From positions 1 to 60,091 of the forward strand of contig WFSJ01000030.1 in the NCBI GenBank assembly GCA_015486055.1: a DNA stretch of 60,091 bases, given 5' to 3'. A program made the position numbers and the translations under genes. The notes below the pieces were generated by a model. It saw nothing but the letters and a program-made list of their open reading frames with translations. It searched no databases and had not been told where the DNA came from. Shown here one piece after another: positions 41,512-58,120 of this stretch (position 1 is its first letter; the number at the start of each line of letters is the position of its first letter). The stretch is from Acidobacteriota bacterium (GTDB taxonomy: Bacteria; Acidobacteriota; Aminicenantia; S016-38).

Positions 41512-42432
41512 ATGGAACTCATTGAAGATGTAAGAGAGTTTATTCTGCACGGCGGAGGGTTTAATCCAGATCTTGCTCTTGAAATAGCTAATTATCAACT
41601 AAAAAAAATCCCCCTCTATAGAGAATACTGTGGAAAATTGGGATTTTCTCGATTCAAAAACTTAGGGGATATAGTTTTTTTCCCTGCGGAATTCCTCAAA
41701 TATGAGAAAATATTTTCCTTCCGAAATCCAGAAGGTTATTTTCTATCAAGTGGGACAACCGGAAACCAAAGCAGAGTTTTTTATAATAAAGATTCCCTTT
41801 CCCTGTATAAAATTTCGGCCCTCCGTTCCTTTCCATTCAGAGAAAAAATACTTTCTCTAATACCGAGATTTGAGTTTTCTCCTCATTCTTCTCTATCTTT
41901 TATGATGAAAATCTTTGAGGAAAAAATGAAGGTTGATTATTTAAACGACAGTTACGAACTCAAACCAGAAAATGTTTACCCTCTTATTAAAGATGAATCT
42001 GGAATATTATTCATGACATCAACGCAGCTTTATAAAATGGCCAAATGGCTGGAAAAAAAGGGCAGTTTCGTGGACAGTAAATTTATTATAATAGACACAG
42101 GGGGATACAAAGGCCTAAACCAGAAATATGACAGGGGAGAACTTCAGAGATACTCCTCAAAATTTTTTCCAAATTCTGAGTTCTGGACAGAATATGGAAT
42201 GAGCGAGCTTTTCTCTCAGTTTTATACTCCTTATCAAGGATTATACAAGGACTATCCCTATGCGAAAGTTTTTACTGAGGGCAAAGGTCTCCTAAGTATA
42301 TTTGACTTTTCAAATTTCTGCACAGTCTCCGCTCTTTTAGTCCCAGACATCGTTGAAATAAAAAAAGAAGGATTTAATGTTATTGGAAGAACAGCTAAAG
42401 GAATAAAGGGATGCGGATATGTTTTCAGGTAA
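41512..42432 (+). CDS. LuxE/PaaK-like acyl-protein synthetase (adenylate-forming)
   Basis: The 306-residue protein resembles LuxE, which activates fatty acids as acyl-AMP and passes the acyl group to its own cysteine or to LuxC. The phosphate-binding motif YFLSSGTTGNQSRVFY (about 78-93) fits the adenylate-forming family. Further markers are LFMTSTQLYKMAKWL, IIDTGGYKG, FWTEYGMSELFSQFY and the C-terminal IGRTAKGIKGCGYVFR. The cysteine in GCGY is at the place where LuxE-type proteins carry their acyl-accepting cysteine, but that is inference. The start has only a weak ribosome site. The gene overlaps luxC-like by 14 bp, so the two act together. Confidence 0.82.
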   Translation: MELIEDVREFILHGGGFNPDLALEIANYQLKKIPLYREYCGKLGFSRFKNLGDIVFFPAEFLKYEKIFSFRNPEGYFLSSGTTGNQSRVFYNKDSLSLYKISALRSFPFREKILSLIPRFEFSPHSSLSFMMKIFEEKMKVDYLNDSYELKPENVYPLIKDESGILFMTSTQLYKMAKWLEKKGSFVDSKFIIIDTGGYKGLNQKYDRGELQRYSSKFFPNSEFWTEYGMSELFSQFYTPYQGLYKDYPYAKVFTEGKGLLSIFDFSNFCTVSALLVPDIVEIKKEGFNVIGRTAKGIKGCGYVFR

Positions 42433-43405
42433 GCTTTTAGAAAAGGGAGCAAGGGCAGCGAGAAAAATCGCCTTAATGATTGAGAAAGGAGAGGAAGTGA
42501 GCGACAGGGGATATCAAAAAAAACTCCTAAAAGAAATCCTTCTTTATACCGCCTCTGAACTTGAAAAATTAAAGATGGATAGGTTCAAGGGACCGCAAAA
42601 AGTATTTGTCTTTCTCCCTGAAAATGTTCCTGTGATTCCTTTCCAGCTCTTGACCCTAATTGAAACATATTCTCTTGAGGTTTTATTCAAAGCTCCCTCA
42701 TCCGAAAGGCTCTTTTACGAGATTCTCAGTAAAGAAATGGGGCTTAACTTTATATGGACAGACCACGAAATAGCTTTAAAAAAGGCGAAAGAATTCGATT
42801 TCATAATAGGATTTGGAGAGGAAGGGCTGGGAAAAATATTAAAGAACTTAGGAAAACCATATAGATTCTTCGGGCCTAAATTCTCAATAGGGGTTATAAA
42901 TGGGAAAAACCAAGATGAACTTAACAAAGTCCTACTTGATTCTCTTTCATTTGATGGAGAAGCATGTCTTTCACCTGTTTTTCTTTTCCTAAGAGATATT
43001 GAATTAGAGGTTCTCTGGGAGATGATGGGAGAAGCTTCAAGAAAAAGGCCGCCTCAAAAAAGCTTTAATAAATATGCTTTACAATATGCGGCATCTTTCC
43101 TTCTTTACTATAGCAAGGATTTCAAAATAAATAAGGACAGAGCTTTATTCCTTGTTGATAAATTTCCCAAGTTTATTCCTCAAAGGACAATCTTTGTTGT
43201 TAAGGCAAACACCCAAGAGGAAATTTTAAACTTCCTTGGGGATAAAGCCCAGAAAGTTCAGGGAATAATCACGATGAAAAGACCTGAGCTTCTCTTTTCC
43301 GAAACCAGCGTTTCAATTGTGCTCCCTCCTGGAAGTTCTCAATTCCCATCTTTAACATGGTTTTTTCGGAGGGGAATTACAATGGAAAATTTCTTCTCAA
43401 TTTAA
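42419..43405 (+). CDS. LuxC-like acyl-CoA/acyl-protein reductase
   Basis: LuxC-family enzymes (PF05893, aldehyde-dehydrogenase fold) reduce an activated acyl group to the fatty aldehyde with NADPH. The 328-residue protein contains FVFLPENVPVIPFQLL, a feature of the family N-terminus, and the putative catalytic C183 in FDGEACLSPVFLF. LuxC and LuxE form a fatty-acid reductase complex in luminous bacteria. No luxA, luxB or luxD is present here, so the aldehyde must have another use, such as ether lipids or waxes. The protein is shorter than typical Vibrio LuxC (about 480 aa), mainly at the N-terminus. Confidence 0.78.
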   Translation: MFSGKLLEKGARAARKIALMIEKGEEVSDRGYQKKLLKEILLYTASELEKLKMDRFKGPQKVFVFLPENVPVIPFQLLTLIETYSLEVLFKAPSSERLFYEILSKEMGLNFIWTDHEIALKKAKEFDFIIGFGEEGLGKILKNLGKPYRFFGPKFSIGVINGKNQDELNKVLLDSLSFDGEACLSPVFLFLRDIELEVLWEMMGEASRKRPPQKSFNKYALQYAASFLLYYSKDFKINKDRALFLVDKFPKFIPQRTIFVVKANTQEEILNFLGDKAQKVQGIITMKRPELLFSETSVSIVLPPGSSQFPSLTWFFRRGITMENFFSI

Positions 43406-43469
43406 TACCCATTTTATCTTTCCTCAATTTTGTTTTAGAATAACACTGACTAAATCTGAGAGGTGAAAG

Positions 43470-44576
43470 ATGTTGGATATCAAGAAAGTGGAGGGTAAAA
43501 AGGACATTAAACGGTTCATAATGCTCCCGTGGAAAATTTACAAGGGAGATAAGAATTGGGTTCCACCCTTAATCTCCGATGTAAAAAAGCTCCTTGATAG
43601 GGAACGCCATCCATTCCACAAGCACGCTGAAGTGGAATACTTTTTAGCCTTTAAAGACGGTAAGATCGCTGGCAGAATATCTGCTTTCATCAATCACCGC
43701 CATAACGAATACTGGAATGACAAAGTCGGATTTTTCGGATTTTTTGAGTCAATAAATGACAAAGAAGTATCAAGAGCCCTGTTCGAAAAAGCAGAGGAAT
43801 GGCTCAGAGAAAGGGAAATGGAGAGTATGAGGGGACCCATGAACTTTTCAACCAATGAAACCTGCGGCCTCTTGTACAAGGGATTTGATTCTCCACCGGT
43901 AGTTGAGATGACCTATAACCCAAGATATTATGTCAATCTTTTTGAAGATTACGGAATGAAAATAGTTAGATTTCTGTACTCCTACAGACTTTCAAAGGAT
44001 ACTCCAATCCCGGAAAAACTCAAGAGAGTGGCAGAGTACAGGCTAAAGAAAATCCCTGTAAGGAAGGCAAACGTAAAGGATTTTAGAAACGAAATTGAAA
44101 GATTTAAGCTTATATACAATGAAGCGTGGGGAAAGAATTGGGGATTTGTTCCTCTCACAAACGAGGAAATAGATTTCATTGCAGAGGAACTAAAACCAAT
44201 ACTTGATCCTCATATAGTTTTCTTTGCGGAAATAGACGGAGAACCTGCTGGGGCTTCTCTTTCCCTTCCTGATTTCAATCAGATCCTTAAGTATGCAAAT
44301 GGAAGACTTTTTCCATTTGGGCTGATAAAGCTTCTGCTCCACAAAAAGGAGATAAACATGCTCAGAACCTATGCTATGGGAGTCAGAGAAAAATTCAGGT
44401 TCAGGGGACTTGAGGCTTTAATGATATATAAAACTATAAAGGAAGGAATAAAAAGAGGTTATCTTGGTGCTGATATGGGGTGGATTCTTGATTCGAACTA
44501 TCAGATGAACAAAATCTTGGAGGATCTTGGTTCTGAAAAATACAAGGAATATGCAATCTACGAGAAGGAATTCTGA
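43470..44576 (+). CDS. GNAT-fold N-acyltransferase family protein
   Basis: This 368-residue protein belongs to a distinct GNAT-related family, marked by WVPPLISDVKKLLDRERHPF, AEVEYFLAFKDGKIAGRISAFINHRHNEYW, VGFFGFFES, MNFSTNETCGLLYKGFDSPPVVEM and NPRYYVNLFEDYG. A second acetyltransferase-like half follows (about 180-368). Bacterial ceramide synthase (bCerS) of Caulobacter is, to my recollection, annotated in the same broad group, so an N-acyltransferase acting on long-chain acyl-CoA is plausible. I could not align them. A GAGAGGTG site precedes the ATG. It is immediately followed by the phosphodiesterase gene. Confidence 0.72.
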   Translation: MLDIKKVEGKKDIKRFIMLPWKIYKGDKNWVPPLISDVKKLLDRERHPFHKHAEVEYFLAFKDGKIAGRISAFINHRHNEYWNDKVGFFGFFESINDKEVSRALFEKAEEWLREREMESMRGPMNFSTNETCGLLYKGFDSPPVVEMTYNPRYYVNLFEDYGMKIVRFLYSYRLSKDTPIPEKLKRVAEYRLKKIPVRKANVKDFRNEIERFKLIYNEAWGKNWGFVPLTNEEIDFIAEELKPILDPHIVFFAEIDGEPAGASLSLPDFNQILKYANGRLFPFGLIKLLLHKKEINMLRTYAMGVREKFRFRGLEALMIYKTIKEGIKRGYLGADMGWILDSNYQMNKILEDLGSEKYKEYAIYEKEF

Positions 44577-45857
44577 GTGAAAAAATTTGTCCTTTTGGGA
44601 ATTGATGGGGTCCCCTTTGAGCTCGTGGAGGATTTTTCTAAAAAAGGGATAACGCCGAATCTCGGAAAACTTGCAAGAAAAGGAAGCTTCATAAAAACTC
44701 AGGCTCCCTTCCCTGAAGTTTCCTCTGTCTCTTGGAGCTCATTTATGACCGCTAAAAATCCAGGTGCCCATGGGATATACGGATTTGTTGAGCTTGATGG
44801 AAGGACATATGAATACAGGTTTCCGAATTTCCTGAATTTGAAGGAAAAACCATTTTGGGAAAAGGAAAGCAGAAGAGCAGTAATCATAAATCTTCCCCAA
44901 ACCTATCCTGCAAGAAGAATAAATGGAATTTTGATCTCTGGCTTTGTTGCCCTTTCCTTAGAAAAAGCGGTCTATCCTCCTGCTCTTCTCCCCTTACTTC
45001 GGAGGTTGAAATATAAGGTTGATGTAAACGCATCCCTTGGAAAAAGCGATAAAGATAAATTTATAAATGAGCTCTTCGATATTCTAAAGATCAGGGAAAA
45101 GGTCATGAAAAAATTATGGAAGAAAGACTGGGACATTTTCTTCCTGGTAATCACAGGGACTGATAGGCTTCACCATTTCCTATTTGATGCATACGAAAGC
45201 GAATCTCATCCTTATAGAAAAGCCTTTGAGAGTTATTATAGAGAGGTTGATAGGATAGCTGGAAAGCTTGCTGATATGGCGGAGAGAAGAGATCTTCCCT
45301 TGGCTATATTGTCAGACCATGGTTTCTGCGGAATAAAACAAGAAGTATATCTATCTCAATATCTAAGGAAATGGGGATTTCTTAATTTTGATGAGAATAA
45401 GCCAGGAAATCTCACCTCAATAAGTCCTTCTTCCAGGGTTTTTGCACTTGACCCATCCAGGATTTACATTCACCTTAAGGGAAAATATTCAAGGGGAAAA
45501 GTTGAGCCTTCAGAATATGAAAAGCTAATTGAGGAACTCAAAAAGAAATTTCTCTCAATAGAAATTGATGGGCAAAAGGTCATAAAAGCTGTTTTCCATA
45601 AGGATGAAATATACTCAGGCCCGTATCTGAACTCTGCCCCTGATCTTGTTCTTCTTTCAAATCACGGATTTGACCTGAAATCAGGGACAAAGGCAGAGGT
45701 TCTTCATGGCAAAACCCACTTTACAGGGATGCATACCCAGGATAATGCCTTCCTTATAACTTATCCGAAGATGGAATTTCCCTTTCACCCTTTTATCTAC
45801 CAGGTTTCTGCTCGCATCACCTCCACAATTGAGACTCCAAACTCTCCTATATGCTAA
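44577..45857 (+). CDS. Type I phosphodiesterase/nucleotide pyrophosphatase-like hydrolase
   Basis: The GTG start directly follows the TGA of the GNAT gene (0 bp). The alkaline-phosphatase fold shows a first metal aspartate in VLLGIDGVPFEL (residues 4-15) and a nucleophile region SWSSFMTAKNPGAHGIYGF. The other metal ligands are in TGTDRLHHFLFD, ILSDHGFCG and, near the C-terminus, GKTHFTGMHTQDNAFL. Enzymes of this group cleave phosphodiester or pyrophosphate bonds in nucleotides, phospholipids or alkylated glycerols. The protein lacks a signal peptide, so it is probably cytoplasmic. Position behind the acyl genes suggests a lipid head-group reaction. Confidence 0.82.
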   Translation: MKKFVLLGIDGVPFELVEDFSKKGITPNLGKLARKGSFIKTQAPFPEVSSVSWSSFMTAKNPGAHGIYGFVELDGRTYEYRFPNFLNLKEKPFWEKESRRAVIINLPQTYPARRINGILISGFVALSLEKAVYPPALLPLLRRLKYKVDVNASLGKSDKDKFINELFDILKIREKVMKKLWKKDWDIFFLVITGTDRLHHFLFDAYESESHPYRKAFESYYREVDRIAGKLADMAERRDLPLAILSDHGFCGIKQEVYLSQYLRKWGFLNFDENKPGNLTSISPSSRVFALDPSRIYIHLKGKYSRGKVEPSEYEKLIEELKKKFLSIEIDGQKVIKAVFHKDEIYSGPYLNSAPDLVLLSNHGFDLKSGTKAEVLHGKTHFTGMHTQDNAFLITYPKMEFPFHPFIYQVSARITSTIETPNSPIC

Positions 45858-57316: not shown

Positions 57317-58120
57317 CTAAACTATGTAAAAACCTTCGGATATCTTTTTTGGCTTCTTGTTTTTAATTCTACCCCAATACTTTTCTACAAATTCAAGTTT
57401 CCCAAATACTAATCCTTCTGGATTGTAATTCAATGCGAGTTCCACTTCTTCCGGTATTTTCTTTTTCTTTACCTTGCCCTCCTCTCTCATCCTTGCCACA
57501 TTCTTAAGAATCCTTTTGTACTCCTTGAAATTTAAGCCTTCTTTAAGCACGGAGAGAGGAGTAAGCCAATTCAATCCTTCTTGCCTGGTTGCATAAGAAC
57601 AATAAGGATATTTTCTTAAATTTCCTTCCATCCCTATTTCCTCAGGCAAAAGATCTATGTATGCGGCAACAGCCAATGCGATTTTCCCTTCCTCTATAAG
57701 AATGGACTTAAACCTTGCCGTCCACAAATTCCCTTTGCATTTATTCCTACGGTTATACCATTGGGTAAAACGTTGTTTCAAACCTTTTACAAAGGCTGAA
57801 ATATCAGAGAGTTTTTCCCTCCAGTATTGAACTGGTTTTTCCTCTATTATATGCCCGAACAATGATCTTGCCCTTTCCATAATTTCTTTATCCCCATATT
57901 TTACAGGATTCCGGATTTTTACAAGAAGGTGAAATTGGTCGGGAAGCACAGTATATGCAATAACATTTACAAGATAATACTGACTTAGTTCTTGAAACAA
58001 CTTAATGAATTGGTCTCTTTCGTATCCGTTGAATTCTTTACTTCCCTCCCACAAAGTGCGAGAGATTATGTGATAATATGCTGTTCCTTCCTTAACTTTC
58101 ATCCTTGGCTTTCTTGCCAT
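57317..58120 (-). CDS. Y1 (REP-associated type) transposase homologue with altered HUH motif
   Basis: The 267-residue protein resembles TnpA-REP (RAYT) HUH endonucleases, which nick single-stranded hairpin DNA via a catalytic tyrosine. The N-terminal segment GTAYYHIISRTL and a tyrosine region QRFTQWYNRRNKCKGNLWTARFKS (Y122) fit. However, the metal-binding HUH motif, usually NHFHLLV, reads DQFHLLV (residues 61-67): the first histidine is glutamine. A C-terminal helical extension (about 170-267) is basic. GGAGGT precedes the ATG. No terminal inverted repeats or REP hairpins were found beside it, so it may be a domesticated copy. Confidence 0.8.
   Translation of the reverse strand: MARKPRMKVKEGTAYYHIISRTLWEGSKEFNGYERDQFIKLFQELSQYYLVNVIAYTVLPDQFHLLVKIRNPVKYGDKEIMERARSLFGHIIEEKPVQYWREKLSDISAFVKGLKQRFTQWYNRRNKCKGNLWTARFKSILIEEGKIALAVAAYIDLLPEEIGMEGNLRKYPYCSYATRQEGLNWLTPLSVLKEGLNFKEYKRILKNVARMREEGKVKKKKIPEEVELALNYNPEGLVFGKLEFVEKYWGRIKNKKPKKISEGFYIV

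Follow-up and report, generated by a model that had tools for sequence, protein, structure and literature searches.

Genes and features of the locus

The window, the whole stretch of DNA that was analysed, comprises 60,091 nucleotides of a Candidatus Aminicenantes MAG of 1.86 Mb (source genome). Four open reading frames on its plus strand lie close together:

41512..42432, plus strand: luxE, compact LuxE-like acyl-protein synthetase of 306 aa (profile match to PDB 7xc6_E, conserved motifs)
42419..43405, plus strand: luxC, compact LuxC-like acyl reductase of 328 aa (PF05893 just below the cut-off, ALDH-fold model)
43470..44576, plus strand: GNAT, tandem-GNAT N-acyltransferase of 368 aa, probable bacterial ceramide synthase (relatives' neighbours, tree, fold)
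44577..45857, plus strand: PDE, type I phosphodiesterase of the alkaline phosphatase superfamily, 426 aa, GTG start (PF01663)

The layout given in an earlier sequence-only reading was recovered exactly, with a 14 bp overlap between luxE and luxC, a 64 bp gap between luxC and GNAT, and a 0 bp gap between GNAT and PDE. Since glgB ends 30 bp upstream of luxE and riboflavin synthase starts 10 bp downstream of PDE, the operon limits of this four-gene set are arbitrary. No luxA or luxB family member was found among the window proteins scanned, and a luciferase remnant was rejected on this ground. Pseudogenes were rejected as well, as the reading frames are intact and conserved across two families. 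The PHROGs search returned no match and thus no hint of phage origin. An IS200-like transposase reading frame (Y1_Tnp) is located close to the window end at 57317-58120.

LuxE and LuxC

Judged by their sequences, LuxE and LuxC of the window are compact, divergent members of their families with conserved catalytic cysteines. LuxE scored below the cut-offs of PF04443 (14.7 bits, cut-off 24.9) and NCBIfam NF052244 (25.1 bits, cut-off 550), and a profile of nine LuxE orthologues matched the LuxE of PDB entry 7xc6 (7xc6_E) at 4e-15. The adenylation motif SSGT.G and the C-terminal acyl cysteine C301 are both present. The motifs SSGTTG and EYGMSELFSQ as well as C301 are invariant or nearly so in the nine orthologues and mostly retained in Bacteroidota homologues. 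LuxC reached 19 bits against PF05893 (cut-off 21), and its orthologue in G018 (L033) exceeded the cut-off with 25.3 bits, the others scoring about 13. The structure model of LuxC (pLDDT 91.5) shows an ALDH fold and matched LuxC 7xc6_A in a fold search with a probability of 1.00 and a TM of 0.72. Searching the PDB by sequence with this LuxC profile returned chance PPAR-gamma matches only. The catalytic residues of both enzymes were checked by alignment, and the two cysteines proved invariant:

42412..42414, plus strand: codon of C301, the putative acyl-accepting cysteine of LuxE, in a GCG motif close to the C-terminus, invariant in alignments, position counted on the sequence
42965..42967, plus strand: codon of the catalytic cysteine C183 of LuxC (SFDGEACLSP), invariant in nine orthologues and in Bacteroidota homologues

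The earlier suggestion of an aldehyde-making pair without luciferase is upheld to the extent that both proteins are intact homologues which could, in principle, make an aldehyde without it.

Conservation of the gene set among relatives

Adjacent luxE and luxC genes were seen in at least eight genomes. These come from two families, namely from the genus of the source genome (g1) and its sister genus (g2), both of family f1, and from genus g3 of family f2. The pair is therefore not due to chance. In G001, it is split between contigs. All four genes occurred together in three genomes only (G000, which is the source genome, G001, and G002), which belong to the one genus g1. Their order is kept and their spacing is similar in all three, so a functional link is conceivable. 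The sequence-only reading had proposed that the four genes form one pathway. This did not hold up, as a search of related genomes for the co-occurrence of all four families found it in g1 only, and GNAT and PDE are widespread without luxE and luxC and occupy other loci in the nearest genera. GNAT was detected in 138 of 142 genomes of the class, irrespective of luxE, and luxE in 10 of 142. GNAT as a part of the luxE-luxC module was rejected, being nearly universal in the class without that pair.

In the sister genus, luxE-luxC come immediately after the type IV pilus genes pilB-pilT-pilC-pilS-pilR in four genomes, and GNAT heads a locus of its own that also holds an M24-type peptidase gene and a transporter gene. 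The search for PDE in this genus turned up no orthologue, its best matches being paralogues of 33% identity. Between pilR and luxE, the sister genus has a small gene of ~165 aa that partially matches PAPS-reductase (L030 8142-8657, with equivalents in L029, L031, and L032).

Within 41512-44576 of the window, luxE and luxC are much less alike between close genera (46-57% identity) than the neighbouring GNAT is. Across the two genera g1 and g2, GNAT is 79-82% identical, compared with 51-57% for luxE and 46-56% for luxC, which argues for a different constraint on GNAT and on luxE/luxC.

Probable separate transcription of GNAT and PDE

The gap between luxC and GNAT contains two elements:

43436..43441, plus strand: TAGAAT, -10-like element of a probable GNAT promoter, recurring in 7/7 genomes, promoter function putative
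43458..43469, plus strand: Shine-Dalgarno block GAGAGGTGAAAG of GNAT, near-identical in seven genomes

In 7/7 genomes, a TA(G/A)AAT element lies 28-32 nt ahead of the GNAT start codon, and in seven the block GAGAGGTGAA recurs upstream of GNAT. This applies to loci with GNAT behind luxC as well as to those where GNAT stands alone at the head of its own locus. The remaining upstream sequence differs between the genomes by eye. Because the element and the Shine-Dalgarno block are conserved also at stand-alone loci, a separate GNAT promoter is likely, and GNAT-PDE probably form a separate transcript with its own promoter after luxC. A sigma-70 consensus scan did not list the TAGAAT element before GNAT; the sigma-70 and terminator scan stayed below shuffled expectation and was uninformative.

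GNAT as a probable ceramide synthase

GNAT of the window matched PF00583 at 3.5e-6, above the cut-off, and has a tandem GNAT fold; a PDB sequence search yielded no relative. Its resemblance to proteins linked with ceramide, noted earlier from the sequence, was borne out by the gene clusters in which its relatives are found. Relatives adjoin a gene resembling serine palmitoyltransferase (SPT) and/or a CerR-like SDR gene at four loci of Bacteroidota, Mcinerneyibacteriota, and an unassigned bacterium (L021, L022, L023, L024). Within the class, SPT, SDR, and GNAT are clustered in G011 (L146), and SDR and GNAT in G008 (L150). In the tree, the window GNAT groups with the relatives from ceramide clusters, apart from paralogues of about 30% identity. 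These form a second GNAT clade in the class (e.g., L144 1170-2306 and L145 8383-9516), whose members in G012 and G015 lie between peptidase-like and sugar-phosphate nucleotidyltransferase-like genes, named by sequence appearance.

At C24:60430-61611, the source genome carries a gene resembling SPT, with a CerR-like SDR gene in divergent orientation beside it; the pair spans C24:60430-62588 (L130 8428-10589). The best model for this SPT is NF047600 (serine palmitoyltransferase) with 527 bits, below the cut-off of 640. SPT-like genes were found in 125 of 142 class genomes. In G007, GNAT is present and no close SPT match was found. The divergent SPT-like/CerR-like SDR pair also recurs in other Aminicenantia.

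Caulobacter makes ceramide with the enzymes Spt, bCerS, and CerR (PMC11087976, PMC11324152). Ceramide synthase is the best reading of the window GNAT because its relatives adjoin SPT and CerR-like genes, and the source genome has both an SPT and an SDR. GNAT is thus most likely a bacterial ceramide synthase that is independent of LuxE and LuxC. It would act, from its own promoter and on a putative acyl acceptor, as the N-acyltransferase of a separate sphingolipid pathway together with the SPT and the CerR-like reductase of contig C24. Nearly the entire class Aminicenantia can probably make sphingolipids.

Phosphodiesterase

PDE matched PF01663 at 6e-40, above the cut-off, and its motifs GIDGVP, SVSW.SF, GTDRLHH, LSDHGF, and GMH are invariant. 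A PDB sequence search recovered no relative. Orthologues were located in polysaccharide clusters, with identities of 54-56% in f2 and 42-44% in G021, and their neighbours include glycan genes, for example a GDP-fucose synthase homologue. The enzyme may accordingly be described as a predicted hydrolase of a type otherwise found in surface-polysaccharide clusters. A conserved f2 cluster (L135-L138) contains a glycosyltransferase-like gene, an SDR gene, the PDE orthologue, the GDP-fucose synthase homologue, and a membrane protein gene.

An aminotransferase as proposed partner of LuxE and LuxC

The pair luxE-luxC seems to have its true partner in a class-III aminotransferase, AT3. In G015 and G018, AT3, luxE, and luxC form an operon in which AT3 and luxE overlap by 14 bp and luxE and luxC by about the same. 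In G007, AT3 is followed by luxE, within which the contig ends. Among the 142 class genomes, the ten with AT3 orthologues (53-56% identity) are precisely the ten with luxE, and they include all seven f1 genomes. Fisher tests of this co-occurrence gave 1.5e-15 by genome and 4.8e-5 by genus, values that draw on a small number of lineages (family f1 and, in f2, genus g3) and hence a small effective sample. No further genome with an AT3 orthologue was found among 396 sampled across the phylum. G021, a genome of 85% completeness, holds a luxC fragment and no close AT3. Conserved catalytic residues add to the case for the three-enzyme module.

In 7/7 f1 genomes, AT3 overlaps or adjoins a gene for a flippase-like protein (PF03706/TIGR00374, LPG_synthase_TM). 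In the source genome, both genes are found at C10:243-2397 (L157), away from luxE-luxC. As AT3 resembles ArgD/GabT-type enzymes of small-molecule metabolism, a fatty substrate is not secured for it.

Because AT3 shares its operon and its genomes with luxE-luxC, the three enzymes are read as a route from an acid via an acyl-enzyme and an aldehyde to an amine, the activities, substrate, and direction being inferred from computed homology, catalytic residues, gene orders, and co-occurrence. LuxE would adenylate a carboxylic acid and hold the acyl group as a thioester on C301. LuxC would accept this group on C183 and reduce it with NAD(P)H to the aldehyde, which AT3 would convert to a primary amine by PLP-dependent transamination. 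A lipid-like acid is probable, a guess prompted by the coupling of AT3 to a flippase-like membrane protein in f1.

Interpretation and alternatives

The four neighbouring genes are real. The best explanation, held with moderate confidence, is that they do not form one pathway and that the stretch joins parts of three systems. With the same reasonable degree of confidence, these are taken to be an acid-to-amine module of LuxE, LuxC, and AT3, a separate ceramide-synthase GNAT, and a polysaccharide-type PDE. Should this be right, LuxC-LuxE would have a role outside bioluminescence as the half of an acid-to-amine pathway that carries out the reduction, and the compact LuxE common in Bacteroidota would gain a testable hypothesis. 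It would also illustrate that gene packing within one window can suggest a false pathway.

An unlikely alternative is that the pair supplies an aldehyde or alcohol to the synthesis of ether lipids, wax, or hydrocarbons, with AT3 co-occurring through shared ancestry only. Fatty aldehyde is the product of canonical LuxE/LuxC, the co-occurrence is backed by only two or three independent lineages, and compact LuxE is common in Bacteroidota without close LuxC or AT3 neighbours. However, AT3 and luxE-luxC overlap translationally in g3, and f1 retains AT3 although it is unlinked from luxE-luxC.

Still less probable is that LuxE-LuxC put a fatty or small acyl-derived group on a surface appendage or glycan. 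Such a role has been proposed for the flagellin glycosylation islands of Aeromonas, Enterobacteriaceae, and Dickeya, where luxE and luxC occur outside bioluminescence (PMC7874193, PMC4875605, PMC7575072), and it would suit the position of the pair directly behind the pil genes in the sister genus. In g1 and g3, however, the pair is without pilus gene neighbours, and unlike in the flagellar islands, ACP, FabG, or glycosyltransferase neighbours are absent.

Equally doubtful is a variant in which LuxE, LuxC, and AT3 turn a fatty acid into a long-chain primary amine, i.e., a sphingoid-like base without SPT. In g1, the adjoining ceramide synthase would N-acylate this amine to an N-alkyl amide lipid, which the flippase-like protein would move across the membrane. 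To our knowledge, no amine-lipid route via LuxE, LuxC, AT3, N-acylation, and a flippase is known.

The lowest probability falls to a single fatty-acyl lipid pathway, with fatty aldehyde from LuxE/LuxC, N-acylation by GNAT, and head-group removal by PDE: the constant order and similar spacing in g1 and the link of the GNAT family to ceramide-type lipids favour it, but the set is not conserved outside the genus, GNAT is far more widespread than luxE, PDE orthologues lie in polysaccharide loci, GNAT probably has a separate promoter, and GNAT and luxE/luxC differ in their identity between genera.

Comparison with known systems

The LuxC-LuxE complex of luminous bacteria (PDB 7xc6) is a homologous pair with adjacent genes, conserved acyl cysteines, and a LuxC of ALDH fold. 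While the window proteins have 306 (LuxE) and 328 aa (LuxC), those of 7xc6 have 373 and 477 aa, respectively. The window pair further differs by its low identity, the absence of a luciferase from the window, the co-occurring AT3, and the gene order, as luxE here precedes luxC with the 14 bp overlap.

The flagellin glycosylation islands likewise hold a non-luminous LuxE-LuxC, and in the sister genus, the pair has genes of a different surface appendage next to it. In contrast to the islands, no set of ACP, ketoreductase, AMP-synthetase, or glycosyltransferase genes stands alongside the pair here. The compact LuxE profile matched 135 of 395 Bacteroidota genomes (E <= 1e-25) in single copy. Given this number and the non-luminous LuxE/LuxC of the flagellin islands, the missing luciferase is unremarkable. 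The Bacteroidota proteins share the size class, motifs, and cysteine with the window LuxE, while identity is only 26-31% and most of the loci examined (L182-L195) are without LuxC nearby; compact LuxE-LuxC pairs were found in L191, L193, and L195. AS87_03730 of Riemerella anatipestifer, a LuxE homologue that has been deleted and whose chemistry was left unsolved in that study, is counted among the compact Bacteroidota LuxE by description only (PMC4772473). As cited in the same paper, the LuxE domain of Vibrio cholerae RfbN acts in tetronate synthesis (PMC4772473), so LuxE-like proteins need not use fatty acids.

The bCerS/CerS of Caulobacter (CC_1154), compared through gene context, is similar to the window GNAT in being from an N-acyltransferase family found beside SPT and CerR-like genes, and an SPT and an SDR are also present in the source genome. 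The window GNAT, whose activity is predicted, differs in standing behind luxC, away from SPT and CerR.

While non-luminous LuxE/LuxC are already known, the LuxE-LuxC-aminotransferase module would be the new element. No description of such a pathway was found in a literature search that covered mainly open-access papers. A parallel in chemistry is the PigE-type system of the prodigiosin pathway, in which an acyl group is first reduced and then undergoes transamination of the class-III type. AT3 matched the PigE model in its aminotransferase portion; PigE has a reductase portion besides. In PigE, a single protein combines transamination with an unrelated thioester reductase, whereas here separate proteins and an ATP-dependent activation by LuxE would serve the same sequence of steps.
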